A DNA stretch of 60,127 bases, from contig JAGAMF010000002.1 of the NCBI GenBank assembly GCA_017624855.1, positions 131,866-191,992 on the forward strand, written 5' to 3'. Position numbers and translations under genes: made by a program. This document shows, one piece after another, positions 1 through 18,580 of the stretch; the stretch's first letter is position 1; each line of letters starts with the position of its first letter. A model generated the notes under the pieces. It did no database searches, was not told where the DNA came from, and was given only the letters and a program-made list of their open reading frames with translations. Source of the DNA: Lachnospiraceae bacterium (GTDB taxonomy: Bacteria; Bacillota; Clostridia; Lachnospirales; Lachnospiraceae).

Positions 1-21
1 CTGTTTACAGTTATCTCTATC

Positions 22-249
22 TTATTCTTCTGTAGATTCTTCTGCGGGAAGTGCTACCTGAATGCATAACTCTTCCAACTGCTTGGGATCAACCACATTC
101 GGTGCCTCAGACATTAAGCAGGAAGCATCTTTTACCTTAGGGAAGGCCATTACATCACGGATGGACTCTGCTTTTACCATAAGCATAATCATACGGTCAA
201 GACCGTAAGCCAAACCTGCATGAGGAGGTACGCCGTACTTGAATGATTT
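22..249 (-). pseudogene. aspS: 3' remnant of bacterial-type aspartyl-tRNA synthetase gene
   Basis: The last ~75 codons encode the C-terminal catalytic end of a bacterial Asp[19 protein letters not shown] carries class II motif 3, and a typical tail follows ([17 protein letters not shown]). Upstream of about 249 the reading frame continues only into unrelated A+T-rich sequence. The anticodon-binding, insertion and most catalytic regions (roughly 500 residues in the family) are missing. hisS lies upstream on the same strand; hisS-aspS is a common Firmicute gene order, so the 5' part appears to have been displaced by the island at 344-8034. No ribosome site is visible and the fragment cannot be a working synthetase. 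Whether a full bacterial aspS exists elsewhere cannot be seen. Confidence 0.85.
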
Positions 250-343
250 ATAGATACTGTTGTTCGCTATACTATAAATCAACTCAAAAAACCTATCATT
301 ACATATATCACTTATTCGTACATGATTGAATCACTTAAAAACA

Positions 344-1681
344 TTATGGTGTTAAACGAATGGGGCTACGGAACAAGAACATTGCATCCTTAATCGATAA
401 ATTAAAAATTAACATTGTTAAACGATCAATTCCCAGTCCAAAACCACCATGCGGAGGACAACCATACTTAAAAAACTCCAAATAAAATTTAACATCTTCC
501 GCAAGACCCTTTTCATCTGCTTGCGCTTTTAATATATCGTAGCGATGTTCTCTTTGTGCACCCGTTGTTATTTCAACACCCTTCCAAATCAAGTCATATC
601 CCTGAGGAACACCATTTTCATCTCTCATATGATAAAAGGCTCTTTTCTCAGCATCAAAATCTGTTACAAATAAAAACTCATGTCCATAATGTTTCTTAAC
701 CCATTCGTAACTAAGTTTCTCAGCTTCTGTAGTCATATCGCCCTTCTCAGAATCATCAATTGCATATCCGAATTCGTTTTCTAGTGCAACATATAAATCT
801 TTTAATTTAATTCTTGGAAATGGAGTGGACGGAACTACAATTTCTACATCAAACAACTCTTTAAGTTTCTCACCATATTTCTCCTTAACTGCAGATAAAC
901 CAGCAACTAATACATCTTCTTCCATCTGCATAACATCTTCCATACCTGTAATATAACTAAACTCTAAATCAAAGCAAGAAAATTCGGTTGCGTGTTTACT
1001 TGTAAATGATTTCTCAGCTCTGAATACAGGACCAACTTCATAAATACGTTCAAACCCCGATGCCATTGCCATCTGTTTATAAAATTGAGGGCTCTGTGCA
1101 AGATATGCATTTGTGTCGAAATATTTTACTTCAAATACCTCTGAACCACTTTCGCTAGCAGCAGCAATTAATTTAGGAGTATGAATTTCAATAAATTCAT
1201 TCTTCAACAAATAATCTCTTATCGCTGCTACAAAACAAGTCTGAATCTGGAACATGAGCTGATTTTCATCTGTACGAAGATCAATCCAACGATAATCAAT
1301 TCTCTGATCAATACCACTTCTCTCAACTGCCGCCTGTTTCTTTGTGGCCGCAATCGCCTTTCTTACAATTGGAAGTGCCGTCGCAAGGCTCTCGATCTTG
1401 ATTGCTGTTGGAAGCAACTCCACGCCTCCCATCTTAACATAATCATTCTCAACAACTTTTCCTTCAATTGTAACAACTGAATCTGCCGTAAGCTTTTCAA
1501 AATCTTCAACCAAATCTAATTGAGCAGACTTTTCCAAAGTAATCTGAAGTTTTCCTGTAATATCCTTTAAAACAAGAAACAACATAGCCTTACTATTTCT
1601 AACATTTTCAACAAACCCTTGTACTTTTACAACTTGTCCATTATACTGTTTTATATCACGAATTTTAACTCTATTCATCAT
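344..1681 (-). CDS. aspS: Aspartyl-tRNA synthetase, archaeal/eukaryotic-type (AspRS2)
   Basis: Class II synthetase that charges tRNA with aspartate. The 445 residues match the archaeal-type AspRS size (about 430-450), against about 590 for the bacterial type. An N-terminal OB-fold anticodon domain (~15-100) precedes the catalytic core. Motif 1 is near 160-170, motif 2 contains GPVFRAE (217-223), motif 3 is GFGLGIDRL (~413-421), and the end FLFRSPIRLTP resembles the family's ...RLTP terminus. Catalytic residues look intact. AGGAG lies just upstream of ATG-ATG. Bacterial AspRS2 proteins are often non-discriminating, also making Asp-tRNA(Asn). It is the last gene of the island operon, immediately before the broken bacterial aspS, so it may supply the cell's Asp-tRNA or act as an inhibitor-resistant copy. 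Confidence 0.9.
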   Translation of the reverse strand: MMNRVKIRDIKQYNGQVVKVQGFVENVRNSKAMLFLVLKDITGKLQITLEKSAQLDLVEDFEKLTADSVVTIEGKVVENDYVKMGGVELLPTAIKIESLATALPIVRKAIAATKKQAAVERSGIDQRIDYRWIDLRTDENQLMFQIQTCFVAAIRDYLLKNEFIEIHTPKLIAAASESGSEVFEVKYFDTNAYLAQSPQFYKQMAMASGFERIYEVGPVFRAEKSFTSKHATEFSCFDLEFSYITGMEDVMQMEEDVLVAGLSAVKEKYGEKLKELFDVEIVVPSTPFPRIKLKDLYVALENEFGYAIDDSEKGDMTTEAEKLSYEWVKKHYGHEFLFVTDFDAEKRAFYHMRDENGVPQGYDLIWKGVEITTGAQREHRYDILKAQADEKGLAEDVKFYLEFFKYGCPPHGGFGLGIDRLTMLIFNLSIKDAMFLFRSPIRLTP

Positions 1682-1716
1682 CTTTCTCCTTACTTAAACA
1701 CATTACTAGTTTTTGA

Positions 1717-2205
1717 TTATATCTCACATCTATTAGCATAGTCAATCAATTTTTTTGCAGTATTAGTAGATAACAAATCTGGATTCACTATTTTATTATT
1801 AAATCTAACAAGTGATAAACGGTCTGCATCCCATATACATCCAGAAATCAAATGATTAGTTATTTTACCTTTGTCATGAATACGTACTGCTTCTATTATT
1901 TCCTCGAAAACTGTTTCACTTATATCATATTTTTTTAAATACATAAAAATTTCTTCTTTATGCGAAAGGCAATATTGGTAACCAGCTTCTCCATGTGATT
2001 GACCTTTTTTTTCTCTACCCCTACCAATATCATGAAGATAACAGCCAATTACAACCGGATCTATCACATCTATGTTTTCTCCTGCTGCAATCATTATTCC
2101 GAAATGAACTGTTTGCAAAATGTGTTTCCACCCATCAATACCAGTCTTAACAATATATCTATCGTATATATATTTTCCAATTTCTTCAATATCACGCTTT
2201 GTCAA
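1717..2205 (-). CDS. HD-domain phosphohydrolase
   Basis: A small HD-superfamily metal-dependent phosphohydrolase of about 162 residues. Likely metal ligands are H28/H34, the HD pair H58-D59 (YLHDIGRG), H71 in SHGEAG, and an aspartate in WDADRL (~126-128). Related stand-alone HD proteins hydrolyse nucleotides or other small phosphoesters; the substrate here is unknown. The start is a TTG eight bases after the kinase gene's stop, preceded by a GAGG motif, which suggests translational coupling. Its place between a P-loop kinase and AspRS suggests a phosphate-removal step or a housecleaning role in the island pathway. It resembles the HD protein at 56174-56656 only in general fold. Confidence 0.75.
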   Translation of the reverse strand: MTKRDIEEIGKYIYDRYIVKTGIDGWKHILQTVHFGIMIAAGENIDVIDPVVIGCYLHDIGRGREKKGQSHGEAGYQYCLSHKEEIFMYLKKYDISETVFEEIIEAVRIHDKGKITNHLISGCIWDADRLSLVRFNNKIVNPDLLSTNTAKKLIDYANRCEI

Positions 2206-2212
2206 ATCTTTA

Positions 2213-2794
2213 TTATCCTCTTTTCATCCCATTCTCTATGTATGACATAATAATATTAACTTGTTCTTGTTGATCTAATGGTAAATAAACAATATTCTTA
2301 TATTCAGAAGTCAAACTATTGTATCTTATACAAATTTGCTCTACATATTCGGGATTTTTATCTTTAGTTCCATATTTTTCTAGGATTTCATAATTTGCCG
2401 GTAATACAAATACTTGGTCATATGGAAACTTATAACAATAAAAATTTACATAATCACGAATATATTTGCTATTTTCCTTACTCATTAACACATCTGAATA
2501 TACAATCTGATCCAAAACACATCTGTCGTAAATATGGAGTCCGCCAATATCTAAAGCAAAATCACATTCTCGCTCAATAAGTTTTGATAACATCCAATAA
2601 GTTAATAATAATTCACGATTGCTTTCATTTTTCAAGCTTTGTGCACTAGAATAATCTATAGGAGATGATTTTCCAGAAAACGAATGAAACACAACTTCCT
2701 CTAATCGCCCATATTTCTGAACCAGCTTTTCTTCTACTTTTTTAAGGACCGTCGATTTCCCACAACAATGTGGACCTGTAACTGCAATTTTCAT
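2213..2794 (-). CDS. P-loop nucleoside/nucleotide kinase-like protein (AAA_28/NadR-like)
   Basis: 193 residues with a Walker A loop GPHCCGKST at 7-15 and a DR signature at 90-91 followed by D95 (IYDRCVLDQ). This layout occurs in thymidylate-kinase-like, deoxynucleoside-kinase-like and NadR-like P-loop kinases. It probably phosphorylates a nucleoside, nucleotide or related small molecule in the cytoplasm; the substrate is not recognisable. Start ATG with AAGGATGG upstream. An 84-base gap separates it from the ThrRS-like gene, the largest break after the first gene pair, and may hold a weak internal promoter. It is followed almost directly by the HD hydrolase. Confidence 0.7.
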   Translation of the reverse strand: MKIAVTGPHCCGKSTVLKKVEEKLVQKYGRLEEVVFHSFSGKSSPIDYSSAQSLKNESNRELLLTYWMLSKLIERECDFALDIGGLHIYDRCVLDQIVYSDVLMSKENSKYIRDYVNFYCYKFPYDQVFVLPANYEILEKYGTKDKNPEYVEQICIRYNSLTSEYKNIVYLPLDQQEQVNIIMSYIENGMKRG

Positions 2795-2878
2795 ATTAAT
2801 TTACCATCCTTCTGCAAAAAATCCCGTGTTGTATAAAACAATTTCTTGCTCGTTTGACTTTATATTTTTCTTCTAACA

Positions 2879-3760
2879 TTATTTTAATTTAAATTCGATA
2901 TCTTTAAGCACATAAATAAGTCTCTCTATACTACCAGGAGTAGAATGAATAATGCAATCAACACCTTCCATTAAAAATAATATAGGTGAGCTATAATCTA
3001 TTTGAACTGTCGCAAGCTGAATAAAGTTTTTGTTTCGATCTAAATAGATATATTTCATTTTAGCTTCCCAATATCGAATTGTTCTGTCATACACATTAAC
3101 CACAATTGGCATATTCATCGAAACTGAAATTTTCATTAAAAAATTCTCGTATTTCTTATATTCCTCTTTTGTTATTCGTATTGCGAAAAAAAATGGAATC
3201 TCTAATGAGCTAAGAATTTCATAATGAAACTGCAACATCTCTTTAAACTCAAGTTCTATTTTTTGTGTTTTCAAAAAAGAATGAAAATCTGGCAAATGAA
3301 AGACCTTTCTTCTCTTCATTCCAATCACTTCTTCTTCTTTACGAAAACAGTGTGTATACTCATAAAATCTAACCAAATCACAAGAATTCTTCTTATTTGC
3401 CATCATGGAAAAAACACCAAAATCACTTGCTGGTGGTAATAAATAACCATCCTCTGTTCGAAATGGTTCTAATCCGAAACGTTTCTGCAACTCCAAAAGT
3501 GTATCGGTTTCAGCGAATAATTGTTGAGTTCTTACTTTAGAAACATCAAGTTTTTTTTCTGCTACTTTTTTATCAATGACATCCAAAAGATAACTCTCAT
3601 AAGCTGCAAATTCTATTTCTGACACAGTCACATGCTTTTTTAGTAAAAACTCCTCTTTCGATTTTTTAGTATATAAAACTATGTTTTCGTCGATGCAATT
3701 TGTAAGTTCATTAATTTGATATATCTTTTTATCATATATTACAAACTGTTCTTCAGACAT
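2879..3760 (-). CDS. ThrRS-like class II synthetase core, stand-alone
   Basis: 293 residues resembling only the catalytic domain of threonyl-tRNA synthetase; TGS, editing and C-terminal anticodon domains are absent. Visible signatures are motif 2 arginine-glutamate in HCFRKE (137-142), PDFHSF (157-162) corresponding to the QDDAHIF region, an ATVQIDY strand (250-256) like ThrRS's TVQLDF, and motif 3 GSIER (276-280) after the H272 position. Two of the three ThrRS zinc-ligand histidines seem kept, but the Cys of MNCP is replaced (PASDFG). The start is set at M6 of the longer frame because GGAGG lies five bases before it. Inference: it activates an amino acid without charging tRNA, or acts on another acceptor. 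It sits 16 bases after the HAD-kinase gene. Confidence 0.7.
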   Translation of the reverse strand: MSEEQFVIYDKKIYQINELTNCIDENIVLYTKKSKEEFLLKKHVTVSEIEFAAYESYLLDVIDKKVAEKKLDVSKVRTQQLFAETDTLLELQKRFGLEPFRTEDGYLLPPASDFGVFSMMANKKNSCDLVRFYEYTHCFRKEEEVIGMKRRKVFHLPDFHSFLKTQKIELEFKEMLQFHYEILSSLEIPFFFAIRITKEEYKKYENFLMKISVSMNMPIVVNVYDRTIRYWEAKMKYIYLDRNKNFIQLATVQIDYSSPILFLMEGVDCIIHSTPGSIERLIYVLKDIEFKLK

Positions 3761-3776
3761 AAATTCCTCCATCATA

Positions 3777-5198
3777 TTATATCGATTGAACGAAAGTCAA
3801 ATGTTCTTCTAACAATTGAGAAAATGTTTTATCATTTCCATAAGGGCATTTCTCGTCTGGATTACTACATCCATTTCTCACTAAAAACGCCATAATATTT
3901 AATAATGAAAAAATTGAAAATGTTCTGATTTTTTTTTCAACTTCTCTATCCACACCAAGCTTTTCTATTAATATCGGATACAATATTGTACCATATGCAT
4001 GTGCTACAAATTCCCCATACCCCATTTCAATTGGTGCTGATAAAACAGCACCCGGATCGATAAACACAACCCTCGTATCACTAACCATAATGTTTCGAAA
4101 ATTATTATCCATGGGCACAACCCCATTATTACCAGCCCCCAGGAAATTGATAGATTCATTACAGATTTTGTTTGCAATACAAACCCATTTTTTCATTTCA
4201 TCACAAGTATTCAAAGCTTCTAATGTTGGTGTAATGTATGCACGAAAAAAATCAGAAAAACTAACAAATCCCCCTTCTCTATTCTCGTTTATACTTCCAT
4301 ATCCTATAGTATTTAAATGATGTAAAGTATTTATTAACTCAACAAATGCATCAACAACTCGCTCAGCCACCACTTCTTGCAATGCGTGCTTTGATAATAA
4401 ATCTGCCAACAAAATGCCTTCTACCTCTTCAAATACTGCGTATGATTTACCTATTTTTTCCTCAAATAATAATCTTTTGAAGAAATTATGTTCAGAACTT
4501 TCAATCCAATGATACAACAATAATTCATTATCCTTTTGTCTTTTTATATCATCCACATAAAACTTTATATAAAACTTTTTTTTACCTATGGACAAACAAA
4601 AAACAATATTTGCCGCATCAGATACAATCTTTACCGCAATTTCTTTAAAGCAATTTGATATTTCACAATTACAATTAATGTTCAATAAGCTTCTCTCTAC
4701 GACATAGAATGGATCAAATAACACCGGCATCGGAATTGCCCCATCCAGTCCATTAATCACTTCAATTCTATCATCAAAAAAACAATGCAAATTTAATTCT
4801 TTGATTGTATTCAGCTTCATTTCTTCTGTTTCACAAAAAAAACACCCTTTAAAAAATTTTTTTATATCGAGATTTTCAATTGATTTATTCGCATTTATGA
4901 CTCCCAAATCTGATTTACCCCGTCTACTCACTAGATAGAGTTCACATCCCGCATCAATCAGCCTTTGAAAACAATCCACACAATCTGCATCAACAAATTG
5001 ATCATTTGTTGATGTACCAGCTAATCGCCCCAAATGATGACGAATATCCACATTTGTTATATAGTCATCGATTAAATTTGAATTCAATTTCCATTCTTCT
5101 AACTCTATTCCATATATCTCTTTTAACTTCTGTGTCTTAAAATAGGTATTATTTAATATTACTCCATCCAAATCAAATCCAATTTTTAACATTCCCAT
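3777..5198 (-). CDS. HAD phosphatase-like / APH-type kinase-like fusion
   Basis: 473 residues. The N-terminal ~155 residues are HAD-like: FDLDGVI (8-14) supplies the nucleophile and general-acid aspartates, an SRRG serine lies near 91, and acidic motif IV is FFDDR (140-144). The C-terminal ~300 residues resemble aminoglycoside/choline-kinase-like folds: FYIKFY may hold the ATP lysine, and VPMDNNFRN (361-369) with VVFIDPG (377-383) resembles the catalytic loop and DFG-like motif, although the usual HGD histidine is absent. One chain may therefore join phosphate removal and phosphate transfer. It overlaps the PurD-like gene by 13 bases, implying coupled translation. The substrate is unknown. 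Confidence 0.65.
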   Translation of the reverse strand: MGMLKIGFDLDGVILNNTYFKTQKLKEIYGIELEEWKLNSNLIDDYITNVDIRHHLGRLAGTSTNDQFVDADCVDCFQRLIDAGCELYLVSRRGKSDLGVINANKSIENLDIKKFFKGCFFCETEEMKLNTIKELNLHCFFDDRIEVINGLDGAIPMPVLFDPFYVVERSLLNINCNCEISNCFKEIAVKIVSDAANIVFCLSIGKKKFYIKFYVDDIKRQKDNELLLYHWIESSEHNFFKRLLFEEKIGKSYAVFEEVEGILLADLLSKHALQEVVAERVVDAFVELINTLHHLNTIGYGSINENREGGFVSFSDFFRAYITPTLEALNTCDEMKKWVCIANKICNESINFLGAGNNGVVPMDNNFRNIMVSDTRVVFIDPGAVLSAPIEMGYGEFVAHAYGTILYPILIEKLGVDREVEKKIRTFSIFSLLNIMAFLVRNGCSNPDEKCPYGNDKTFSQLLEEHLTFVQSI

Positions 5199-6460
5199 AA
5201 TCCAATATCCGTCCTATAGTGAATTTTTCCTTCTATCTTCTGCAACTCTGAGTAAACTTTTTCTCTTGTTTCGTTAATTGTATCCCCTACTGCGCAAACT
5301 GCAAGCGCCCTTGAATTTTTTAATATGCATCGTCCATCTCTATATGCAACATTACCAACATACAACAACTCTGAATCTACTCTTGAAAAATCCAAATCTG
5401 TCCCTACATATTCCTTATCTAACATATATTTCTCTGGAACAATGTATGCAGAAATGCACACACGATTTGACCATACATTATTTAATTTATCAATTGTGCC
5501 TTCTAAAATATGCTCACATATTTCAGAAAAATTCACATTCATGATTGCGAGCATATTAATTGATGACGGATTTCCAAAACGACAATTGTATTCGATAACT
5601 TTTATATCATTGCCACAAACTAAAAATTCCCCATATAAACTACCTATAAACAAATCATCTGTTGATTTATTGCATTCTTCTAAGATCATCTCGGTAATCG
5701 CATGTAGCTTTTTAATAATTTCCTCAGTCATATAAGAAAAATCACAGATAATAGTTCCCATTCCTGATGTATTTTCACCAACATTTCCATTATTAATTCT
5801 TTTATGATTTTTAAAAGGTGGTGTATGCAAAAGATGTACACCATCTGAAAAACTCATAATTGCAATTTCATGGCCTTTAATATATTCTTCAACGATAATG
5901 TGTCCATAATCCTTTATCCATCGTTCTGCATTTCTTACAGCCTCCTCTAACTGTTCAGGTAATTCATAAATTCTAACACGCGGTCCAGCTATTACTCCAT
6001 CACATTTTATTACCACCTTATCATCAAATGTTTGTATGTAATTTTTTATTTTATCTGAATATTTAAAAAAATCTTTGTATTTTGGATTTAAATCAGGTGC
6101 TTTTTGACTTAATAAATCTCGGAGATAAGTTTTAGAACCTTCAATCTTTGCAGCTTCCTTTGTAGGCGCAATACACTTAATTCCCACGCGATTAAGCATA
6201 TTCTTTAATCCTCGCTGTATCACTTCACCTTGGCCAACAATAACATAATCTGGCAATATCTCCATAATCTTGTTAAATACTCTATCTATATCATTTAAAT
6301 CGATAACATGATATTCTCCATTGCATAAATCTCGAACAAATAAATTCTCTGCCCATAAAATTACAGACAATCGATATTTCTTTGTTCTTGCAAAATGCTT
6401 TGCAATTGCATGCTCTCTTCCAGTTGCTCCTCCTATTAACACTACATGTCTCACTGCCAA
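5186..6460 (-). CDS. PurD-like ATP-grasp ligase
   Basis: 424 residues, co-linear with phosphoribosylamine-glycine ligase (GAR synthetase). The N-terminal motif is LIGGATGREHAIA (8-20), followed by APTKEAAKIEGSK (98-110), EEYIKGHEI (191-199), HKRINNGNVGENTSGMGT (219-236) and YNCRFGNPS (291-299). Family members join an amine to an ATP-activated carboxylate. Two normally conserved spots differ: the GLAAGKGV-type loop reads GVIAGPRV (155-162), and RFGDPE reads RFGNPS. This argues for a paralog with a different amine or acid rather than purine synthesis. The start is TTG six bases after AAGGAG, with an alternative GTG two codons later. It lies between the AsnRS-like gene and the HAD-kinase fusion in the island operon. 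Confidence 0.8.
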   Translation of the reverse strand: MAVRHVVLIGGATGREHAIAKHFARTKKYRLSVILWAENLFVRDLCNGEYHVIDLNDIDRVFNKIMEILPDYVIVGQGEVIQRGLKNMLNRVGIKCIAPTKEAAKIEGSKTYLRDLLSQKAPDLNPKYKDFFKYSDKIKNYIQTFDDKVVIKCDGVIAGPRVRIYELPEQLEEAVRNAERWIKDYGHIIVEEYIKGHEIAIMSFSDGVHLLHTPPFKNHKRINNGNVGENTSGMGTIICDFSYMTEEIIKKLHAITEMILEECNKSTDDLFIGSLYGEFLVCGNDIKVIEYNCRFGNPSSINMLAIMNVNFSEICEHILEGTIDKLNNVWSNRVCISAYIVPEKYMLDKEYVGTDLDFSRVDSELLYVGNVAYRDGRCILKNSRALAVCAVGDTINETREKVYSELQKIEGKIHYRTDIGLWEC

Positions 6461-6546
6461 ACACTCTCCTTCTGAATTAATTCATTACAATATTATTTCC
6501 AAATTCATATATGTTTTCAAACAAACAGAGGATCCAATTAGCTATT

Positions 6547-7854
6547 TTAGGGGTAAATTTTCTGATTAATTCTCCTAGGAAACGGAATTACATCCTTAAC
6601 ATGATTCATATTAAACAACCATCGGATATATCGTTCTAATCCCATTCCTAACCCACAATGTTGAACAGTACCATATTCTCGAATATCACAAAACCACTTA
6701 TATTCATCATATAATTTACCTTTTTCTTCTAATCTCTTCCTAAGTTCATCAATATCTGTAATCTTTTCTGCAATTCCAAGTATTTCCCCTAAACCTTTTG
6801 AAGCAATTAAGTCTGCCGTCATAGTCAAATTACTATTATCCTTACATTCTCGATATGGAAATCCTTCAATTCCCTTTGGTTTATATGTAATCCAAAATGG
6901 TTTACCGAAATATTCGGAAAGGAATTTCTCCGACTTATCATTCAAACTTTTCCCATATTGAAATCCAATGCCTTTTTCATTCAACAAAAGAACAACATCA
7001 TCATAACTGATTCTTGGAAATGGAGTTTGCATTCCATCATCACAAAATGTCGTTCCAATCATAGTTGCTAACTCTTCACCACCATGTTCCTTAATGTATT
7101 TTGTTGTATAACAAATCAAATCTTCTACCACATCAAAATATTCTTCAAAGCCACAAAACGCCAATTCTGATTTTATGTGCCAATACTCCATCAAATGTCT
7201 TTTACTTACACTTTCAGCACCACGAAAGCTTGGTCCAATATTATATACTTTTTCCAAAGAATGTACCGCACTTTCTAAGTAAAATCCTACACATTGCGTT
7301 AAAAATACATTCTGATTTTTAATAGAGACTTCAATTCCTGTTTCTTTTTCGTATAATAATATGGGGGTTAAAATTGGTGCTGTCACATCACAATATCCGT
7401 TCTCATGGAACCAGCTTCTAACAGCTTCAATTACTAAATTACGCGCTTTTAAAATGCCTACAAAACTTTGATTTCTAATATATAAGTGTTTATTTTTTAC
7501 TATTTTATTTGCATTTTTCTCCGAAAACACATCAATATTTGATCTTGCACCCGGGGATAACTCACAATTCACATCGCCAATAAGCTTTATCATCCCTACT
7601 TCAACTAACTTATTCCCCTTTAAATCATCAGACAATACTCCTGTGCAATAAACAGACTGCTCGTTATTTAACTGAAATGACACAAGATTATTATTGACAA
7701 CTAAGTCTATTCTTCCGGTAGAATCTTCCACTTTAAAAAAAGTAACATCCTTATGTTTCCTATTTGCACAAATCCATCCATATATTTCTATATTTTTAAT
7801 GTTTGGAACATTGTTATTTAAAATATCTGCAATATAATACTTCTTCATTTTCAC
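6547..7854 (-). CDS. AsnRS/AspRS-like class II synthetase paralog
   Basis: 435 residues. An N-terminal OB-fold (~20-95, IEIYGWICANRK) is followed by a class II core with motif 2 GPSFRGAE (207-214), R219-H220, and motif 3 GLGMGLERY (401-409). The end VIPFPRR is close to the AsnRS terminus (VIPFPR). The adenylate-forming arginines are present, so amino-acid activation is plausible. It may be a diverged asparaginyl-tRNA synthetase or an enzyme moving aspartate/asparagine to a non-tRNA acceptor, as seen for other AsxRS paralogs. The start is a weak GTG at 7854 or ATG at 7848. It is the first full-length gene after the operon promoter, 15 bases after the 21-codon frame. Confidence 0.75.
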   Translation of the reverse strand: MKMKKYYIADILNNNVPNIKNIEIYGWICANRKHKDVTFFKVEDSTGRIDLVVNNNLVSFQLNNEQSVYCTGVLSDDLKGNKLVEVGMIKLIGDVNCELSPGARSNIDVFSEKNANKIVKNKHLYIRNQSFVGILKARNLVIEAVRSWFHENGYCDVTAPILTPILLYEKETGIEVSIKNQNVFLTQCVGFYLESAVHSLEKVYNIGPSFRGAESVSKRHLMEYWHIKSELAFCGFEEYFDVVEDLICYTTKYIKEHGGEELATMIGTTFCDDGMQTPFPRISYDDVVLLLNEKGIGFQYGKSLNDKSEKFLSEYFGKPFWITYKPKGIEGFPYRECKDNSNLTMTADLIASKGLGEILGIAEKITDIDELRKRLEEKGKLYDEYKWFCDIREYGTVQHCGLGMGLERYIRWLFNMNHVKDVIPFPRRINQKIYP

Positions 7855-7869
7855 TCAAACGGCTTACAT

Positions 7870-7935
7870 CTAATCTAAAACCGGACTTCCTCCCTGCTTA
7901 ATAATAATTTTATGAATTACTTTTGACATGTCCAT
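7870..7935 (-). CDS. Candidate 21-residue peptide at head of island operon
   Basis: A short frame begins ATGGACATG, starting MDMSKVIHK and ending KQGGSPVLD with a TAG stop. An AAGGGC ribosome-binding motif lies six bases before the ATG. It follows a strong promoter by about 65 bases of leader and precedes the AsnRS-like gene by 15 bases. The C-terminal residue is aspartate and there is an internal Gly-Gly. It could be a precursor peptide modified at its C-terminus, a regulatory leader peptide, or chance. An overlapping 22-codon frame (7917-7985) starts right after GGGGTG, with poorer spacing. No homolog is recognised. Confidence 0.35.
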   Translation of the reverse strand: MDMSKVIHKIIIKQGGSPVLD

Positions 7936-8005
7936 TTTATTGCCCTTTTTATAGGAGCATAGGCAAATATTTTCTCTAAATCCATCACCCCAAAATATAA
8001 TTGTT

Positions 8006-8034
8006 AGTATAACATTAGATTTTAATTTCAACAA
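8006..8034 (-). promoter_or_regulatory. Sigma-A promoter of the island operon
   Basis: -35 TTGTTG (8034-8029), a 17-base spacer, and -10 TATACT (8011-8006) with an extended TGT just before it. Transcription would start near 8000, giving a leader of about 65 bases before the 21-codon frame. The hisS terminator lies upstream, so the island is probably transcribed independently of hisS. Confidence 0.7.
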
Positions 8035-8269
8035 CAATTTATTTAATGTTAAATGTATAAATTTATCATAAACATTTAATAAACAGTGCACTCCACAACC
8101 AATAATATAAATATAATTTTATTTACCATATATTACAGTATTTTTACATGTTTCAATATTCTTGCCTTACAATAAAATAGAATTTTATCTCTATCGCATA
8201 ATAATCATTAATTCTTTATATCCCTTCCCTTAGCTTTAACTATAAAGTAAGTCCTCAAACAATAGAAAA

Positions 8270-8296
8270 AGGACATCTTTCTTTAAAAAATGTCCT
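8270..8296 (-). terminator. hisS: Rho-independent terminator of hisS
   Basis: The 7-bp stem AGGACAT/ATGTCCT encloses a 13-base A+T-rich loop and is followed on the minus strand by TTTTTC. It lies about 80 bases after the hisS stop. It separates hisS from the downstream island. The remaining sequence from 8035 to 8269 is A+T-rich with no gene I can support. Confidence 0.7.
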
Positions 8297-8378
8297 CCAA
8301 ACCTATTCAACCGCTCAATTCAGACAGAACGGAATGCCAAAATAAAATTAATAAAATTTTCTCTTATTTATATAAAAC

Positions 8379-9641
8379 TTAGTTCTTTAATGCTTCTCTG
8401 TAGAAGTCCTTAAATTCGGTATAACCGTCCTTCATCAGCTGTTCCTTCTGGAACTTCTTATTCTTGTTCATCTTGGCTACCAGAACAATTTTACCTTCTT
8501 CACGAAGTGCCTGAGCCTCTGCGATGATTTCACCGGTTCTTGCAGCATCCATGCCCTTCTCTAAAAGGAATGCAATCTTATTATCGGCGTTGGGAACCTT
8601 AAATCCTCTTTCTAAAAGAATCGTGATAATTCTTTCAAAACCAATGGAGAATCCGCATGCGGGAGTATCGTTGCCGGTGAATTTACCAATCATCTTGTCA
8701 TATCTTCCACCGCCTGCTACGCTGCAGTTCAATTCCTTCATTTCGATTTCGAAAATGGTGCCGGTGTAGTAGCTCATACCGCGCACAAGTGTAGGGTCAA
8801 ACATAATCTCGCAGTCAGCCTTCTTAGCCGCTTCCACGGTTGCAAAAATCTCCGCAAGATTGTCAGCAACACCTTCTTCCAAGCAATCGCCAAGCTCCTC
8901 TTTTAAGAATGCAAGCTTATCTTCTGCCGCATTCATTTTATCAAAGAGGGTCATATACTTCTCAACGCATTCCGGTGCAAATTCGCATCCTAAAAGTGCT
9001 TCCTTCACGCCGTCAATGCCGATTTTGTCCATTTTATCCAACTGAATGAATACCTGGTCGTAATCTTCCTCGGCAAAACCGCTGTACGCTGCCATGGCTT
9101 TTAAGATTCTTCTTTCATTGATGTGCACTTTGAAATTCTCGAATCCAAGCTTACCTAAAAGAGTTGTGGTTGCCAACACCAACTCGATTTCTGCCAAGTT
9201 GGAAGGCTCGCCTAAGATATCAATGTCACACTGTACGAACTGACGGAAGCGTCCCTTCTGAGGTCTGTCCGCACGCCATACATTACCCATCTGCAACGCC
9301 TTAAAAGGCTGGTTTAAATTTGCTGCGTTGTTGGCATAGAATCTTGCCAAGGGCACGGTTAAATCGTAGCGCAAACCGCTGTCCACCAAATCGTTTTCTT
9401 CCTTTGCGGTTTCAAGGCTTAACTTCTCGCCTCTTTTTAATACCTTAAAAATCAGCTTCTCGTTCTCACCGCCCTGCTTACTGCACAGGTTCTCTATATG
9501 CTCCACGCAAGGGGTTTCAATGTGTGAAAAACCGAACTTTGCGTAAGTATTCTTGATTTCGTCCATTACATAATCCCTGATTTGCATTTCTTCAGGGAGC
9601 ATGTCCTTCATGCCGGTAACCGGCTTCTTAATTAAGCTCAT
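8379..9641 (-). CDS. hisS: Histidyl-tRNA synthetase
   Basis: 420 residues of a standard class II HisRS: an N-terminal catalytic core beginning PVTGMKDMLPEE, motif 2 in the VWRADRPQKGRFRQF region (~115-130), the HisRS-specific LVRGMSYYTGTIFE motif (~260), motif 3 around CGFSIGFERI (~312-321), and a C-terminal anticodon domain. It charges tRNA-His in the cytoplasm. AAGGAG lies nine bases before the ATG. It has its own promoter, and its terminator precedes the island, so the usual hisS-aspS co-transcription appears interrupted here. Base composition is clearly richer in G+C than the downstream island. Confidence 0.97.
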   Translation of the reverse strand: MSLIKKPVTGMKDMLPEEMQIRDYVMDEIKNTYAKFGFSHIETPCVEHIENLCSKQGGENEKLIFKVLKRGEKLSLETAKEENDLVDSGLRYDLTVPLARFYANNAANLNQPFKALQMGNVWRADRPQKGRFRQFVQCDIDILGEPSNLAEIELVLATTTLLGKLGFENFKVHINERRILKAMAAYSGFAEEDYDQVFIQLDKMDKIGIDGVKEALLGCEFAPECVEKYMTLFDKMNAAEDKLAFLKEELGDCLEEGVADNLAEIFATVEAAKKADCEIMFDPTLVRGMSYYTGTIFEIEMKELNCSVAGGGRYDKMIGKFTGNDTPACGFSIGFERIITILLERGFKVPNADNKIAFLLEKGMDAARTGEIIAEAQALREEGKIVLVAKMNKNKKFQKEQLMKDGYTEFKDFYREALKN

Positions 9642-11302: not shown

Positions 11303-11581
11303 AAAAAACCCGTCTCAAATTCCTTTGAGACGAGTTCAAAACCCGCGGTACCACTCAAATTGCGAAATATACATTTCGCCACTTATCAGACTCCATCAAG
11401 TCCTTTGCCTTCACGCAGCATCACGGGAAGAGTCTACTTGCATAGCTTTCGGTCTTCCGACTCGGAAGTGATAGGTTTCTGCATTATTTCACCATTGGCT
11501 CGCACCAAACGCCAACTCTCTGAAGATTCCACAATACAACCGTCTTCGTCACAGTCTTTACTCATTTGAATTATTTAATTT
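11303..11581 (-). promoter_or_regulatory. T-box riboswitch, predicted Ile-specific
   Basis: The leader shows a T-box stem I, the GAGTGGTACCGCGGGT antiterminator motif (~11341-11356), and a terminator stem CGTCTCAAA/TTTGAGACG ending in a T run (11303-11334). In stem I the helix GAAG/CTTC closes the specifier loop; the triplet one base before it is ATC (11472-11470), an Ile codon, followed by a purine. The bulge reads TGGT, matching a tRNA with A73 (Ile), not C73 (His) or G73 (Asp). It controls the ACT-MBL gene. Specifier assignment is by hand. Confidence 0.85.
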
Positions 11582-12518: not shown

Positions 12519-12588
12519 AAAAATACCTGCTTTTATTTTAATAAAATAGTATGTAAAATATGTATTAGATTATTTGTAAAACTGAAAT

Positions 12589-13251
12589 TTATCTCTTACT
12601 TAACTGCTTATCTCTAATCTTAATACAAGCCTCGATGTGCATAATCCAATGTCGTGAAAACGGCATCTGTATCAATCCTCTTACATCTTTTCCGCACCAA
12701 TAATCAATTAACCAATGAGCATTTTCATCCTCACTTACTACATTGAGCGTTTCCAACTGTTTTCTTCTTTCATCGGATATTTTTCCCTTCATATCTTTAT
12801 ATGTAAGTGTCTTTAAAATCCGTGTTGTAGATTCATCAACATCAACAATATAATTATATAGTTCTTCAATAGACAACTTCTTTGAGAACTCTCCGATTTC
12901 TTCTTTTTCAAGTTCATTTGCAGTCGTAATAATCGGCGATTTTATGCGACTTTGATAATCGCCTACAAACAAAATTTGCTCATCTTTTGCAATAAGTGAA
13001 TGCGCTACAATATCCTCTATACGAAAGATATGCCACAAGGAATATGCAATTGTTTTGCTATGATAACCTTTAGCATTTATATAAGGCATAGCACAAAAAT
13101 CAGTATCCGACAGTTCATTCTTAAACTGCATAATTAGTTCCATAAGAGTTCTGCGAAGCTCTAATAATGTATCTATACCCATTGCAAAAGTATCTTTTTT
13201 CTTAATTTGCAACTGTAATGTCTTATTCATTTCTGCCCATTCTTTATTCAT
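12589..13251 (-). CDS. DinB-like four-helix protein
   Basis: 220 residues with a DinB/YfiT-like pattern: a long N-terminal helix, a histidine in SLWHIFRIEDI (~75-85) and a C-terminal HWIMHIEA helix with further histidines. The family forms metal-binding four-helix bundles, sometimes acting as thiol-dependent transferases; the substrate cannot be told. The first ATG (MNKEWAEMNK) lies seven bases after GGAGG. It is next to the MmcQ/YjbR gene and downstream of a terminated AraC-type regulator gene. Confidence 0.65.
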   Translation of the reverse strand: MNKEWAEMNKTLQLQIKKKDTFAMGIDTLLELRRTLMELIMQFKNELSDTDFCAMPYINAKGYHSKTIAYSLWHIFRIEDIVAHSLIAKDEQILFVGDYQSRIKSPIITTANELEKEEIGEFSKKLSIEELYNYIVDVDESTTRILKTLTYKDMKGKISDERRKQLETLNVVSEDENAHWLIDYWCGKDVRGLIQMPFSRHWIMHIEACIKIRDKQLSKR

Positions 13252-13320
13252 AAAAACCTCCGTCAGTTTCCATATTCATACCCAATTATCATTGCTATTT
13301 TTAAGTAGCATCATCTTGAA

Positions 13321-13349
13321 AAAGAGTAAGTCCACTGAACCTACTCTTT
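13321..13349 (-). terminator. Terminator of the AraC-type regulator gene
   Basis: The stem AAAGAGTAGGT/ACTTACTCTTT (one imperfection) with a short loop is followed by TTTTTC on the minus strand, 17 bases after the stop codon. Confidence 0.65.
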
Positions 13350-13365
13350 CCCTAACATCTCAGAA

Positions 13366-14265
13366 TTACCTTCTTTTTACTGGAATCCAGATAGCACTGT
13401 GATAATCAGCATCTGTCGTTTCTCCATTTATACAGTCATACCATTCCACATTCGCATTACCACTTAACTCATAATCAGGATTTCCCGGTAACCATTCCTT
13501 AAATATCCTGGTATTTAGTGATTGAAGAGCCTCCGGGATTGCTCCTACACAGTCAAACACAGCCCATTCACCCTTTTCAAACTCATATAACATCATTCCT
13601 TCCGGAACTTCTCCACCAGTATATTTACCTGCAATCAGATAGGTAAATTTACCTTTGCTCGATGCTTTTTCGTCATCAATACAAATACCGAGCTCCCCTA
13701 TACAGTTATCCATCAATGCTTTTTCCTGTGGATTGGCAGGTGGATTGCCTGCATATACATTAGCCGCATACTTCTCACAGATTTCATCCCAATATTTCGG
13801 AATTTCCTCATATGCCGTATCAAAAGAAAACTCTCTTGCAAAGCCTATCACTTTAAAACCAAACATCTTTGTAATCTTGTAGTCCATTTTATCTCCTCCT
13901 TGAACTGTAACTTTAACACTCAACGGAAGAAAGGTTCTAATATCACCGCCCTGTTTTACCTGCATAGGCGAAATACCATGAAATCTGGTAAATGCTTTCG
14001 CAAAGCTATCCGGTGTATCATATCCATAATCAAGTGCCACATCTATTACTTTTCTGTCAGCCTTTTTCAGCTCAAGTGCCGCCAGATATAGCTTACGATT
14101 ACGAATATACTCTGATACTGAGTAGCCGGTCATAATCAAAAAACCTCTTTGAAAATGTAGAGGGGATACATACACTTGCTCTGCCACATCCTGCGCACTG
14201 ATGTTATCATTCAAATGTCCCTCTATAAAATCAATTGATTCTCTGACTGCAGTTAGCCATTCCAT
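13366..14265 (-). CDS. AraC-family regulator with GyrI-like effector domain
   Basis: 299 residues from the ATG preceded by AAAGGAAGTG; a longer frame starts 25 codons upstream without a ribosome site. An N-terminal AraC DNA-binding pair of helix-turn-helices (~8-105; ALDYGYDTPDSFAKAFTRFHGISP is split by the typical FxKxFxxxxGxSP) is joined to a C-terminal GyrI/effector-binding domain (~130-298). That layout is typical of regulators that sense small hydrophobic or cationic compounds. The target is unknown; neighbouring single genes include CatA-like and VOC proteins often linked to drug protection. Confidence 0.85.
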   Translation of the reverse strand: MEWLTAVRESIDFIEGHLNDNISAQDVAEQVYVSPLHFQRGFLIMTGYSVSEYIRNRKLYLAALELKKADRKVIDVALDYGYDTPDSFAKAFTRFHGISPMQVKQGGDIRTFLPLSVKVTVQGGDKMDYKITKMFGFKVIGFAREFSFDTAYEEIPKYWDEICEKYAANVYAGNPPANPQEKALMDNCIGELGICIDDEKASSKGKFTYLIAGKYTGGEVPEGMMLYEFEKGEWAVFDCVGAIPEALQSLNTRIFKEWLPGNPDYELSGNANVEWYDCINGETTDADYHSAIWIPVKRR

Positions 14266-14390
14266 ACATTCACTTCCTTTCTTCTGTATGGTTAAATGAT
14301 ACGCATCTTGAAGAATTATTTCTTGCCATTTAGAATTCAATTTTGTCCGTTCGCTAAAACTAAGTTTCGCACACGCTTATAAGTAACAGA

Positions 14391-14435
14391 AAATTCAAAT
14401 TCATGCCTGCTTTCAATCTCTCCACAAGACTGAAA
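14391..14435 (-). repeat. Boundary repeat copy A (box plus hairpin)
   Basis: Read on the minus strand: the hairpin TTTCAGTCT/AGATTGAAA (9 bp, one G-T wobble) with loop TGTGGAG, then GCAGGCATG, then GAATTTGAATTT. It lies 54 bases after the CatA-like gene. The loop and most of the stem match copies at 15550 and 22251. Confidence 0.75.
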
Positions 14436-14488
14436 GTTTCATGTGTTCGACAAATTGGAATTTATCTTTCCAACAGCTTAAAAACTTA

Positions 14489-15112
14489 TTATTTCAAACT
14501 GTTAATTTCCTCTTGTAAATTTGCCAAAAATCTACCTGCATGAGCACCATCCATCTGTGTATGATGAAATTGAAAAGAAAGTGTTAGATAATATCGGAAC
14601 CATTTCTTTTTATATCTACCCCAAATGATAAATGGATTATTGAAAATACCACTGTTCATTCCAACAGCTCCATCAATTTCTGTATCTATAATTGCTGATG
14701 TCCCTATTACCATACTATCAGTGGATAAGTCTCTATCTTGACAGCTTTCTGCAACCTGAGAAGTATATTTTAGATATTCCTTATTGTATGTATCTAAATC
14801 TTCTACATACAAAATGTCACAAGAACTAACCTCTCCATCTTTATTCTTTACAATCGTATTAACAGCAATCGTATCATATTGCATAAGTTTGTCTCCGACA
14901 GGAAGTATATAAAACTCTTTTATGCTTACAGCAGCTTTTCCTATACAATAATCCAAAAGCATATTAAACTTCATATTTTTTCTTTTATTGACTTTAATTA
15001 GATTTGTTACATCTAAAGTCTTAAAAAAAGTTACCATAGGGTTTGGTGCTTTCATCCAAAATTCATATGCCATAGCTCTTGATGTATCTTTAGGTTGTAT
15101 TTCTTTTGCCAT
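14489..15112 (-). CDS. CatA-like acetyltransferase
   Basis: 207 residues from the ATG preceded by GGAGG; the longer frame overlaps the VOC gene. It resembles type A chloramphenicol acetyltransferases (about 210-220 residues): the catalytic FQFHHTQMDGAHAGRF motif holds the active-site histidine and the DG turn near the C-terminus, and the trimer core strands are recognisable. CatA enzymes move acetyl from acetyl-CoA to chloramphenicol; many clostridial relatives have untested substrates, so resistance is not proved. A boundary box (15123-15138) lies directly before its ribosome site. Confidence 0.8.
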   Translation of the reverse strand: MAKEIQPKDTSRAMAYEFWMKAPNPMVTFFKTLDVTNLIKVNKRKNMKFNMLLDYCIGKAAVSIKEFYILPVGDKLMQYDTIAVNTIVKNKDGEVSSCDILYVEDLDTYNKEYLKYTSQVAESCQDRDLSTDSMVIGTSAIIDTEIDGAVGMNSGIFNNPFIIWGRYKKKWFRYYLTLSFQFHHTQMDGAHAGRFLANLQEEINSLK

Positions 15113-15122
15113 TATGTCCTCC

Positions 15123-15138
15123 ACAAATTCAAATTTGT
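15123..15138 (-). repeat. Boundary box upstream of CatA-like gene
   Basis: The perfect palindrome ACAAATTTGAATTTGT is followed on the minus strand by GGAGG and the CatA-like start. It matches the box part of the 14391, 15550 and 22251 repeats, but no hairpin is present at this junction. Confidence 0.6.
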
Positions 15139-15150
15139 TTAACAGAGAAG

Positions 15151-15531
15151 TTAGTCTTTTATCTTCAATCCAAATGCTAACCAACGTCCATCTATATCTT
15201 CAATAACAAACTCACTATTCTGATAATCGGTTGTGTGCAGATGTTTAATGAATATAACTTCTTTTTCGATAAGTTCTTTTTCAAGTAACTCTTGATTTCC
15301 TGTATATAAATAGGCATCATAACCATATCCGTACAAGGTTCTATTCGGTAAAATGTTATTTGTATTTGCTTGCAACAAAATGATTTCTATATCGTCTCTA
15401 TAAAGGCAGATATGCGGTTCTGTACTCTTCAGATATTCAACTGCTCTGAAGCCCAGCTTTGATACATAAAATCCCGCTGTTTTCTTTATGTCTGGAGAAG
15501 GGAAAATACAGCTTAATCCACTTATACTCAT
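15151..15531 (-). CDS. VOC-superfamily (glyoxalase/bleomycin-resistance-like) protein
   Basis: 126 residues with the paired beta-alpha-beta-beta-beta modules of vicinal oxygen chelate proteins: the start MSISGLSCIFPSPDIKKTAGFY and the C-terminal VIEDIDGRWLAFG are typical. Members are lyases, dioxygenases or drug-binding proteins; here no substrate can be assigned. GGAGG lies ten bases before the ATG and directly follows boundary repeat C. The CatA-like start lies 38 bases after its stop, so the two could be co-transcribed. Confidence 0.75.
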   Translation of the reverse strand: MSISGLSCIFPSPDIKKTAGFYVSKLGFRAVEYLKSTEPHICLYRDDIEIILLQANTNNILPNRTLYGYGYDAYLYTGNQELLEKELIEKEVIFIKHLHTTDYQNSEFVIEDIDGRWLAFGLKIKD

Positions 15532-15549
15532 ATGATATATACCTCCGCC

Positions 15550-15594
15550 AAATTCGAATTCATGCGTGCTTTCAGGCTCTCCACAAGCCTGAAA
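15550..15594 (-). repeat. Boundary repeat copy C (box plus hairpin)
   Basis: On the minus strand: TTTCAGGCT/AGCCTGAAA (9 bp, all Watson-Crick) with loop TGTGGAG, then GCACGCATG and GAATTCGAATTT. Relative to copies A and E, the stem shows a compensatory double change (T-A to G-C) and a wobble repaired to G-C. It starts two bases after the methyltransferase stop and runs into the VOC ribosome site. Confidence 0.8.
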
Positions 15595-15596
15595 TT

Positions 15597-16355
15597 TTAC
15601 GCTTTTCTTGCCACTACAATAGGTTGATAAAACTCTGTTTCATCAGGAAACTTCCACTCAACCTTACTACAACCATGAGCAAGTAATAATTTTGTCATTT
15701 CTTCTCTTCGTGTAGCCCTATACTCACACTCAAATTTACTTACTTGTAATGTTTCTTCATCATCAATGATATACTGTGTAAGTTTATACGTATCATCATT
15801 CCACACCCATGTTTGAAATGAAACTCTTTGTCCTTTATCAGTTTTATGGATATATGGTGGCGAATATGGTGGTTTTTCCATCAACAAACTATCATAATCT
15901 CTAATACTTGCAACAAATATTCCATTTTCCTTAATCTGATTAACAATGCTTTTAATTGCTGATTCCAAATCATTACTTGTCAGCATATGTGGTAGTGCAT
16001 TATCCATAGCAATAACAATATCAAACTTCTCTGTAAATGTATCTGATAATGAACAGAAATTAGCCTGCTTAAAGCAAATTTCTACATTATTCGCTTTTGC
16101 TCTTTTTTCTGCTTCGATAAGTTCTCCAACGCTTAAATCAGAAGCCGTAACATTATATCCAAGTGAAGCAATACCGATAGCCTGCGTTCCAATTCCGCAA
16201 GCACAGTCAAGAATTTTGGCTGTATTATCAAATCCATTATTTTGATATATACGATTTAGAATTTCTGCTTGTTCCTTTGTTGTAGCTTGCCAATCCAGAA
16301 ATAATTTATCATATTGAGTTGCTAAATTATCATAAAAAGTTTGTATTATGCTCAT
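15597..16355 (-). CDS. Class I SAM-dependent methyltransferase
   Basis: 252 residues from the ATG preceded by ACGGAG; a longer frame reads through the boundary box. Motif I is ILDCACGIGTQAIG (~48-61), followed by an acidic strand ASDLS and the AMDNALPH region, typical of Rossmann-fold methyltransferases that use S-adenosylmethionine. The acceptor is unknown. It lies between boundary repeat C and the left end of the mobile element, with no shared promoter visible. Confidence 0.8.
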   Translation of the reverse strand: MSIIQTFYDNLATQYDKLFLDWQATTKEQAEILNRIYQNNGFDNTAKILDCACGIGTQAIGIASLGYNVTASDLSVGELIEAEKRAKANNVEICFKQANFCSLSDTFTEKFDIVIAMDNALPHMLTSNDLESAIKSIVNQIKENGIFVASIRDYDSLLMEKPPYSPPYIHKTDKGQRVSFQTWVWNDDTYKLTQYIIDDEETLQVSKFECEYRATRREEMTKLLLAHGCSKVEWKFPDETEFYQPIVVARKA

Positions 16356-16370
16356 ATCATTCACTCCGTC

Positions 16371-16383
16371 AAATTCAAAATTT
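16371..16383 (-). repeat. Boundary box upstream of methyltransferase
   Basis: AAATTTTGAATTT on the minus strand, followed by GACGGAG and the methyltransferase start. Two small inverted repeats (GGCTggaaAGCC and TTGAGaaaataCTCAA) lie just upstream in place of the standard hairpin. Confidence 0.5.
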
Positions 16384-16453
16384 CTTGAGTATTTTCTCAA
16401 CTTTCCTTTATTTTCGGGCTTTCCAGCCTCCAAACATCTATGTAATTTTCACT

Positions 16454-16479
16454 TTTCCCTTATTTTTTCCCTTATGGGG
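16454..16479. repeat. Left attachment site candidate (attL)
   Basis: A 26-base sequence beginning TTTCCCTTATTTTTTCCC, 24/26 identical to the site at 22079. Together with the adjoining TATAAGGGAAAAAGTG it forms inverted repeats that may also terminate int transcription. Confidence 0.7.
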
Positions 16480-16510
16480 AATCTATAAGGGAAAAAGTGT
16501 TATTATCGTG

Positions 16511-17809: not shown

Positions 17810-17892
17810 AATCGTTACTCCTTTCGATACAGACAATCGGAACTGATGAAATGCTTCTTGCGTGTAAGTATATCATAACTCCGGTTGTCCTA

Positions 17893-18513
17893 TTATACCG
17901 ATTCGGAGTCTCCTTCTGAAAGAAGATTTGCAAGCCTTTGTGCGGCTGTCTCCGGTTTCTTGGAATACATCCTTACAATATCGCCCATATCATTCAGTGC
18001 ATTTACTGTGTGGGTGATTTCTCTAAGGAACATGATTTCATTGTATTCCTTATCTGATTCAAACCCCATTGTTTTGGCGAGTGTTGTATTTTCCGGATTG
18101 CCTTTGAAGTTCTTACAGGCAAACTGGAAAGAATCCACGAACAACTCATACTCCCGTAACATTAGTAGCAGTAAGTCTTTGGAAAATCCCGCCTCCTCAT
18201 CCCTCATATCGTAAGGAAGTTTAGAGAGAATGGAACTCATGGTGTCACGAATCAAGATTTCTCTTTTATCCGTAATGTCACTATTTTGTTCTTCTGTTTC
18301 TCCCTTCAACCATTCCACAGATACATGGAGTGCTTCGGAAAGACCTTCCAGCACAAGCTTCTTGGTGTTGTCGATTGTTCCGGCTTCATATCTCTGAATA
18401 GTGGAAGGTGTCACTCCCATCTGTTCAGCGACATACGGCTGTTTCAATCCCAACTCCAATCTTCGCTGTTTCGCTCTGCTACCGATTAACTTGCGTAATT
18501 CCTTATCTTTCAT
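17893..18513 (-). CDS. XRE-family transcriptional regulator of the mobile element
   Basis: 206 residues from the ATG preceded by AAGGAGG; the longer frame adds 15 residues without support. An N-terminal Cro/CI-type helix-turn-helix (~10-65, LGLKQPYVAEQMGVTPSTIQ) is followed by a helical C-terminal region of no recognised family. It is divergent from the excisionase gene, and two TTGCAnnnTGCAA palindromes lie in the intervening DNA, one in each promoter region. It is probably the repressor that balances int against xis and transfer functions. Confidence 0.85.
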   Translation of the reverse strand: MKDKELRKLIGSRAKQRRLELGLKQPYVAEQMGVTPSTIQRYEAGTIDNTKKLVLEGLSEALHVSVEWLKGETEEQNSDITDKREILIRDTMSSILSKLPYDMRDEEAGFSKDLLLLMLREYELFVDSFQFACKNFKGNPENTTLAKTMGFESDKEYNEIMFLREITHTVNALNDMGDIVRMYSKKPETAAQRLANLLSEGDSESV

Positions 18514-18544
18514 ATTGATACGCCTCCTTTTTCGGTATGGTATT

Positions 18545-18580
18545 ACTATAACACACATCTTTTATAATTGCAATATGCAA
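18545..18580 (-). promoter_or_regulatory. Promoter and operator of the XRE-int transcription unit
   Basis: TTGCAA (18573-18568), 17 bases, TATAGT (18550-18545). The -35 is the right arm of the palindrome TTGCATATTGCAA (18568-18580), so a bound repressor would occlude it. Confidence 0.65.

Follow-up and report, generated by a model that had tools for sequence, protein, structure and literature searches.

Microcin C is made from a ribosomal peptide and requires the ThiF-type enzyme MccB. It inhibits aspartyl-tRNA synthetase (AspRS) as an aspartyl-nucleotide phosphoramidate (PMC6429109). For agrocin 84, published work describes AgnA, a truncated asparaginyl-tRNA synthetase (AsnRS) that lacks the anticodon domain and serves biosynthesis, and AgnB2, an immune leucyl-tRNA synthetase (LeuRS) (PMC4392301, PMC5059758). 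For ascamycin, the literature reports an extra alanyl-tRNA synthetase (AlaRS), AcmD, that confers immunity and supplies Ala-tRNA, and a degenerate AlaRS-like protein, AcmF, that forms an amide on a nucleoside; SbzA of SB-203208 is a similar case involving isoleucyl-tRNA synthetase (IleRS) (PMC12945691). Here we describe a seven-gene operon in a 60,127-nt stretch (the window) of Lachnospiraceae bacterium (GCA_017624855.1, contig JAGAMF010000002.1, positions 131,866–191,992, forward strand) that appears to resemble the latter, synthetase-paralog antibiotic clusters in plan, but differs from them in its genes, target amino acid and lineage. The operon lies on an island inserted between hisS and a remnant of the native aspS, and its last gene encodes a complete archaeal-type AspRS (AspRS2) that seems to stand in for the destroyed gene and looks like an immunity gene.

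AspRS2 is preceded by genes for AsnRS-like, PurD-like, HAD-kinase, ThrRS-like (threonyl-tRNA synthetase-like), P-loop and HD proteins, and a second island with the same genes was found at a locus denoted L061 (see below). The likeness to agrocin 84 (plasmid pAgK84) lies in the joint presence, in one mobile unit, of an AsnRS-family biosynthetic paralog and a full-length extra synthetase for immunity; the latter part would be played by AspRS2, which is conserved in L061 and predicted to be resistant. The pAgK84 gene annotated as asparagine synthetase A, which we take to be AgnA, matches the island AsnRS-like protein (blastp, 1.4e-24), but both islands' proteins possess an OB-fold and their motifs differ from those of AgnA. 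Agrocin 84 is directed at a class I LeuRS; its host reportedly keeps its own LeuRS, and AgnB2 is reported to remain sensitive to a simple sulfamoyl mimic. Methyltransferase, radical SAM and PEP-enzyme genes are part of the annotation of agrocin 84, in which PurD-like and ThrRS-like genes are absent, and the remaining agn gene set is without counterpart in the island: a Pfam scan of the seven proteins found no methyltransferase or radical SAM domain. With ascamycin and SB-203208 the island shares the extra synthetase, which here too would give immunity. The ascamycin pairing of a full synthetase with a degenerate paralog may correspond to AspRS2 and the AsnRS-like protein with its altered activation motifs (FRAE to FRGA, GGSQR to GIAEK), although the amino acids may not match. 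Those clusters involve AlaRS or IleRS instead of AspRS or AsnRS and come from Streptomyces, and the comparison with acm is based on published descriptions. In the case of microcin C, the Pfam scan of the seven proteins showed no ThiF domain, and by eye no short precursor open reading frame (ORF) is shared by the two islands.

Two plasmid clusters, from Exiguobacterium (L052) and Peribacillus (L051), have a similar list of parts: two class II paralogs, annotated as AsnA-like and AlaRS-related, ATP-grasp and full AlaRS genes, together with a deoxynucleoside kinase (dNK) and APH in L052 and an S66 peptidase in L051. They differ from the island by their methyltransferase and MFS transporter genes, and when 11 L052 and 6 L051 proteins were compared with the island only the AsnA-like ones matched better than E 0.1 (blastp). 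We know of no product for either cluster; they are perhaps AlaRS-directed antibiotic clusters. A limited literature search found no paper on a matching system. Because gene set, target and lineage differ, and because the AsnRS-like and PurD-like proteins depart from AgnA and from canonical PurD, we do not assign the island to any named cluster.

The island is an insertion into aspS

The ORFs of the operon span 344–7854 on the minus strand (Table 1). Those of the PurD-like and HAD-kinase proteins overlap by 13 bp, those of the HAD-kinase and ThrRS-like proteins are 1 bp apart and the remaining gaps measure 7–86 bp, which confirms the tight packing described in the initial annotation of this DNA. 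That annotation also reported a rise in A+T against hisS (8379–9641, upstream of the island), and this was borne out: the G+C content is 0.315 in the island versus 0.398 in the rest of the window, where the lowest value among 437 overlapping 8.1-kb segments is 0.362, and at third codon positions the island genes have 0.18–0.26 versus 0.52 for hisS. Its claim of one strong promoter fared differently. Promoter-like sites (44 found, 47.8 expected) are no more frequent than in shuffled sequence, and none lies at the place proposed, about 8034.

Nineteen loci around the bacterial aspS of relatives from the same genus (L012–L030) were used for an empty-site comparison. In 12 of them hisS and the aspS tail are both present and adjacent, and blastn similarity to the window ends at 243–245 and restarts at 8375–8381. 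At the remaining seven loci the two genes are not seen together: some are cut by a contig end, and the more diverged ones match the aspS tail only or nothing (blastn). The remnant left beside the island is 83–87% identical at the DNA level to the tails of intact aspS in L012, L016, L017 and L020, and in the genome whose HisS is 99% identical (G303) aspS is intact and starts ∼ 100 bp after hisS. The island is a foreign insertion that destroyed the native aspS, leaving only its 3′ end; the initial annotation had overlooked both the broken gene and the site found empty in related genomes. Comparison of the sequences at either end of the island showed no exact repeat, direct or inverted, of at least 9 bp, and there is therefore no classical mark of transposition.

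A profile search of the genome that harbours the window (G000; 74.5% complete, 14 contigs) found no bacterial AspRS over the cut-off. Matches to the bacterial AspRS profile comprise AspRS2 and the remnant, the AsnRS-like protein of the island, and a further pair of class II synthetase-like proteins; we read one of this pair as AsnRS. A T-box leader (RF00230, 105.9 bits) lies at 11323–11561 on the minus strand, ahead of the genes that run into hisS; since aspS follows hisS in relatives, the island may have removed AspRS from T-box control.

Table 1. Features of the island and its borders (positions in the window).
Feature	Position	Strand	Evidence
Complete insertion of 8.1 kb, bounded by hisS and aspS remnant	246..8378	-	Similarity breaks in relatives; G+C content
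AsnRS-like enzyme, OB-fold and class II core, altered activation motifs	6547..7854	-	tRNA-synt_2 1.3e-53; OB-fold 2e-8
PurD-like ATP-grasp ligase, PurD-invariant positions altered	5186..6460	-	GARS_A 3.2e-35; TIGR00877 below cut-off
HAD phosphatase-like and APH-like kinase fusion	3777..5198	-	Motifs kept in L061; weak HAD/NT5C/APH matches
ThrRS-like stand-alone class II catalytic core	2879..3775	-	PF00587 2.3e-9; PRK03991 1.1e-26
P-loop nucleoside/nucleotide-kinase-like protein	2213..2794	-	AAA_28 5.8e-13; PHROG thymidylate kinase 4.1e-15
HD-domain phosphohydrolase, LHDIGRGR and SHGEAGY conserved	1717..2205	-	PF01966 8.9e-8
AspRS2, complete archaeal-type AspRS, predicted immune replacement	344..1681	-	NF003483 433.5 bits, cut-off 353
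Native bacterial aspS remnant, last ∼ 70 codons, host not island	22..245	-	NF001750 profile positions 520–587 of 590
Terminator-like hairpin, interval between hisS and island genes	8268..8298	-	Weak: 2 found in 1–8500 vs 2.3 expected by chance

A sister island and the AspRS2 clade

A pattern scan for AspRS2 in a genome collection of 84,980 species gave at least 592 stretches, at least 578 of them confirmed, and the best 80 loci, some on short contigs, were kept. Among these 80, only L061 (JAFTMY010000086.1), from a Clostridia metagenome-assembled genome (MAG; G708) of roe deer cecum, has all six other island genes, and in the same order. Identities to the window proteins (tblastn) are 72% for the AsnRS-like, 61% for the PurD-like, 42% for the HAD-kinase, 44% for the ThrRS-like, 50% for the P-loop and 48% for the HD protein, and AspRS2 is 73% identical in the pattern scan. 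The 13-bp overlap between the PurD-like and HAD-kinase genes is the same as in the window, and the HD gene overlaps that of AspRS2. Frames and motifs that stay intact at this divergence (42–73% identity) argue for selection on the whole set, and we conclude from the comparison of the two loci that the seven-gene set is a conserved, transferred unit. The initial annotation had proposed a linked biosynthetic set, to be abandoned if the homologs were always found apart; with all seven together in L061 that part stands, but the annotation missed the main point, an AspRS that replaces a destroyed aspS and resembles an immunity gene. A search ahead of the operon revealed neither a conserved leader peptide nor a known RNA; L061 gave one sub-threshold Rfam match only.

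HAD-kinase matches were obtained in 1 of 31 genus genomes and 1 of 398 phylum genomes at 1e-12 (in each case the genome of the window), and in 2 of 299 family genomes, which are the same genome and one weak match of 24%. In the family of G708 there were 27 in 309 genomes, one being G708 itself, while the other 26 match no part of the 501-position profile beyond about position 205. At 1e-15 the ThrRS-like protein had a match in one of the 391 class genomes (the window's own), and it was found in no plasmid or viral contig. For the PurD-like and AsnRS-like proteins the single proteins and A4 gave nothing in viral contigs, and A3 gave one weak locus of 24% (L172). The AsnRS-like family also occurs outside the islands, as a stand-alone copy of 52% in genome G1610 (1 further of 396 genomes at 1e-80); this copy (L167, 12490–13779) adjoins an uncharacterised ORF of 762 aa, and none of the other island genes accompanies it. 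A HAD-kinase scan of genome contigs gave 48 pattern stretches, none confirmed, and also missed L061, which is present in the same collection; the scan is therefore insensitive and does not establish that the island is rare, and more islands may exist.

AspRS2 exceeds the NF003483 cut-off over residues 1–445 and falls just under that of TIGR00458 (350.7 versus 368.4 bits). In an AspRS tree of 89 rows the window, L061, L055 and L056 form one clade (support 100/99), separate from the clade of eight archaeal-type AspRSs of the same genus. L055 and L056 have an AspRS2 that is 82% identical and no other island gene. Their contigs are syntenic with a DNA identity of 85–93%, and are therefore not stray contigs, and each of the two genomes has a bacterial aspS of 875 bits adjoining hisS and a further bacterial AspRS of 735–742 bits. 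Since these genomes keep an intact hisS–aspS, their AspRS2 is an accessory copy, which a role of the lineage in resistance would predict. In three control genomes with another archaeal-type AspRS (L057, L062, L069) no bacterial AspRS over the cut-off was found, as expected where the archaeal-type enzyme is the housekeeping one. A second bacterial-type AspRS of 735–742 bits was seen in G302 (L045, 7943–10021) and in G1017/G1018, each of which carries one already; that of G302 adjoins, by eye, GatB-like and asparaginase/GatD-like ORFs.

Within the genus, 17 of 31 genomes have a bacterial AspRS over the cut-off, eight others, besides the window's own, an archaeal-type enzyme 72–73% identical to AspRS2 and no bacterial one over the cut-off, and the remaining five partial or weak AspRS matches only. 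Four of the eight were inspected (L042–L044, L048) and no island genes were found near their AspRS. These eight species, with an archaeal-type AspRS of a clade other than the island's, mark a further and independent replacement of AspRS within this genus.

A second insertion, of ∼ 9.8 kb relative to G303, occupies positions 12536–22312 of the window, ∼ 4 kb beyond hisS on the side away from the island. By eye, it contains a tyrosine-integrase-like ORF (16511–17836), an HTH gene and a relaxase-like gene (19335–20921).

Putative biosynthetic enzymes of the island

Pfam and NCBIfam profiles upheld six of the gene identities in the initial annotation; the seventh, the HAD-kinase fusion, is weak by profile. 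The AsnRS-like protein stays below the asnS equivalog cut-offs (285.6 of 414 bits, 255 of 342.6 bits). Motif 2 is FRGAES in both islands versus FRAENS in the host AsnRS, and GEILGIAEK stands for GEIIGGSQR, while the arginines of motifs 2 and 3 are retained. The residue at one position in a strand of the OB-fold, a Gln in G1610 as well as the host AsnRS that presumably reads U35 of the anticodon, is Asp in both islands.

The PurD-like protein has the full-length GARS_N/A/C architecture of PurD (glycinamide ribonucleotide synthetase), but scores below the purD equivalog cut-off (TIGR00877, 268.3 versus 288 bits) and departs from it at invariant positions. Relative to three canonical PurDs, both islands show RFGDPE changed to RFGNPS, GPNTGGMG to GENTSGMG and QDHKR to KNHKR; the E-x-N of the ATP-grasp fold is retained. 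The changed positions may shape the acceptor pocket. In the window's genome the island gene is the only purD-like match and a canonical purD was not found, which may be a gap at the stated completeness.

The ThrRS-like protein lacks the editing and anticodon domains, because only positions 242–479 of 613 in PRK03991 are matched. The motif 2 and motif 3 arginines (Arg145 and Arg285) are conserved in L061 and two histidines are also kept; Asp118 seems, by eye, to stand at the place of what we take to be the zinc cysteine of ThrRS. A search of solved structures with the ThrRS-like pair gave a ThrRS as the best match (E 0.00026). The same search with the HAD-kinase gave nothing better than E 0.97, and its profile matches are poor (APH, E 0.14, for the window protein; HAD, 0.003, and NT5C, 0.07, for the L061 relative). 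Its assignment is based mainly on motifs read by eye in both copies, FDLDGV and DDR as well as KFY, PMDNNF.N and FIDPG, with the catalytic-looking Asp residues of both halves kept. Judged by sequence, through cut-offs, motifs and domains, the two synthetase paralogs (AsnRS-like and ThrRS-like) are not regular tRNA-charging enzymes, in line with the initial annotation, and the PurD-like protein is not a regular enzyme of purine synthesis.

Proposed function and alternative explanations

The reading we prefer, and in which we have moderate confidence, is that the island arrived by horizontal transfer as a biosynthetic operon whose product, a small aminoacyl nucleotide or phosphoribosyl-amide, poisons AspRS, with AspRS2 as the immunity gene. 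The PurD-like enzyme would use ATP to couple an amino acid with the amine of a phosphosugar or nucleotide, and the ThrRS-like core would convert an amino acid to its adenylate. The AsnRS-like enzyme might add an aspartyl or asparaginyl unit, either from its own adenylate or, like AcmF, from an aminoacyl-tRNA supplied by AspRS2. The kinases, the HAD phosphatase and the HD hydrolase would set the state of phosphorylation. AspRS2, being of archaeal type and unlike the bacterial target, would keep tRNA-Asp charged, and once insertion had destroyed aspS it would be the only AspRS of the cell. We speculate, with considerable doubt, that this makes the island a self-locking ‘target-swap’ element, which deletes aspS on arrival, cannot be lost because it supplies the sole AspRS, and kills neighbours that depend on a bacterial AspRS; the AsnRS-like protein would then transfer aminoacyl groups in a tRNA-dependent manner, with AspRS2 as its supplier, and the PurD-like protein would be a ligase that diverts phosphoribosylamine chemistry into an antibiotic.

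Several observations weigh against this proposal. Only two islands were found in all, and the branch of L061 in the AspRS tree is long (0.41), which makes its exact place less sure than the support suggests. An archaeal-type AspRS is ordinary in eight of the 31 genus genomes, and alone is no proof of resistance. By the criterion applied, the residues specific to the AspRS2 clade amount to only four positions; I425 and F426, both in the helix of motif 3, are conservative changes. A second AspRS was not found in either island genome, one of them incomplete and the other a MAG, and this is unlike agrocin 84, in which AgnB2 is reported to be non-essential. Short ORFs occur upstream of each island, none common to both by eye, and no exporter- or regulator-like gene is among the seven of either island.

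It is unlikely, though deserving of attention, that the other six genes are biosynthetic and AspRS2 is a housekeeping AspRS that travelled along and repairs the damage of insertion, the product being unrelated to AspRS. Archaeal-type enzymes without a bacterial partner over the cut-off in eight of 31 genus members and all three controls are what this would predict; such enzymes are widespread in gut Clostridia (at least 578 confirmed stretches) and AspRS2 is the only AspRS found in both island genomes. Yet AspRS2 is the last gene of both islands and overlaps the HD gene in L061, the two island copies cluster although their hosts differ, and the two free-standing members of the clade are extra copies beside an intact hisS–aspS.

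The lack of an exporter among the seven genes would also suit a product that acts inside the producer, such as a nucleotide signal, an anti-phage nucleotide or a modified cofactor, which AspRS2 tolerates or supplies, and the kinase, HD and HAD genes fit the handling of nucleotides, the phage families closest to the P-loop protein being thymidylate kinases. We consider this quite improbable: the PADLOC anti-phage models gave a single weak match in one of the seven proteins (VakA, E 0.0044), and no relatives of the HAD-kinase were found in plasmids, phages or viral contigs. The defence and PHROG libraries gave no decisive match for the island proteins. A role in modifying or repairing tRNA, with AspRS2 and the AsnRS-like protein acting on tRNA-Asp/Asn in the way that GluQRS employs a synthetase paralog, draws on the complete AspRS2 and on the recognisable OB-fold of the AsnRS-like protein, but is very improbable given the Gln to Asp change in that fold in both islands and a ThrRS-like protein that has no recognisable tRNA-binding domain. 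To our knowledge the PurD-like, HAD-kinase and HD proteins have no place in known routes of tRNA modification.

If the immunity reading is correct, the island would represent a pathway of non-ribosomal type for a natural AspRS inhibitor from animal gut bacteria, and a case in which an immunity version of a synthetase has taken over the locus of the original. The AspRS2 clade would serve as a marker for finding more such clusters, and the PurD-like and AsnRS-like proteins are concrete enzymes for study. The archaeal-type AspRSs scattered in gut Clostridia might then in part record past exposure to such inhibitors.

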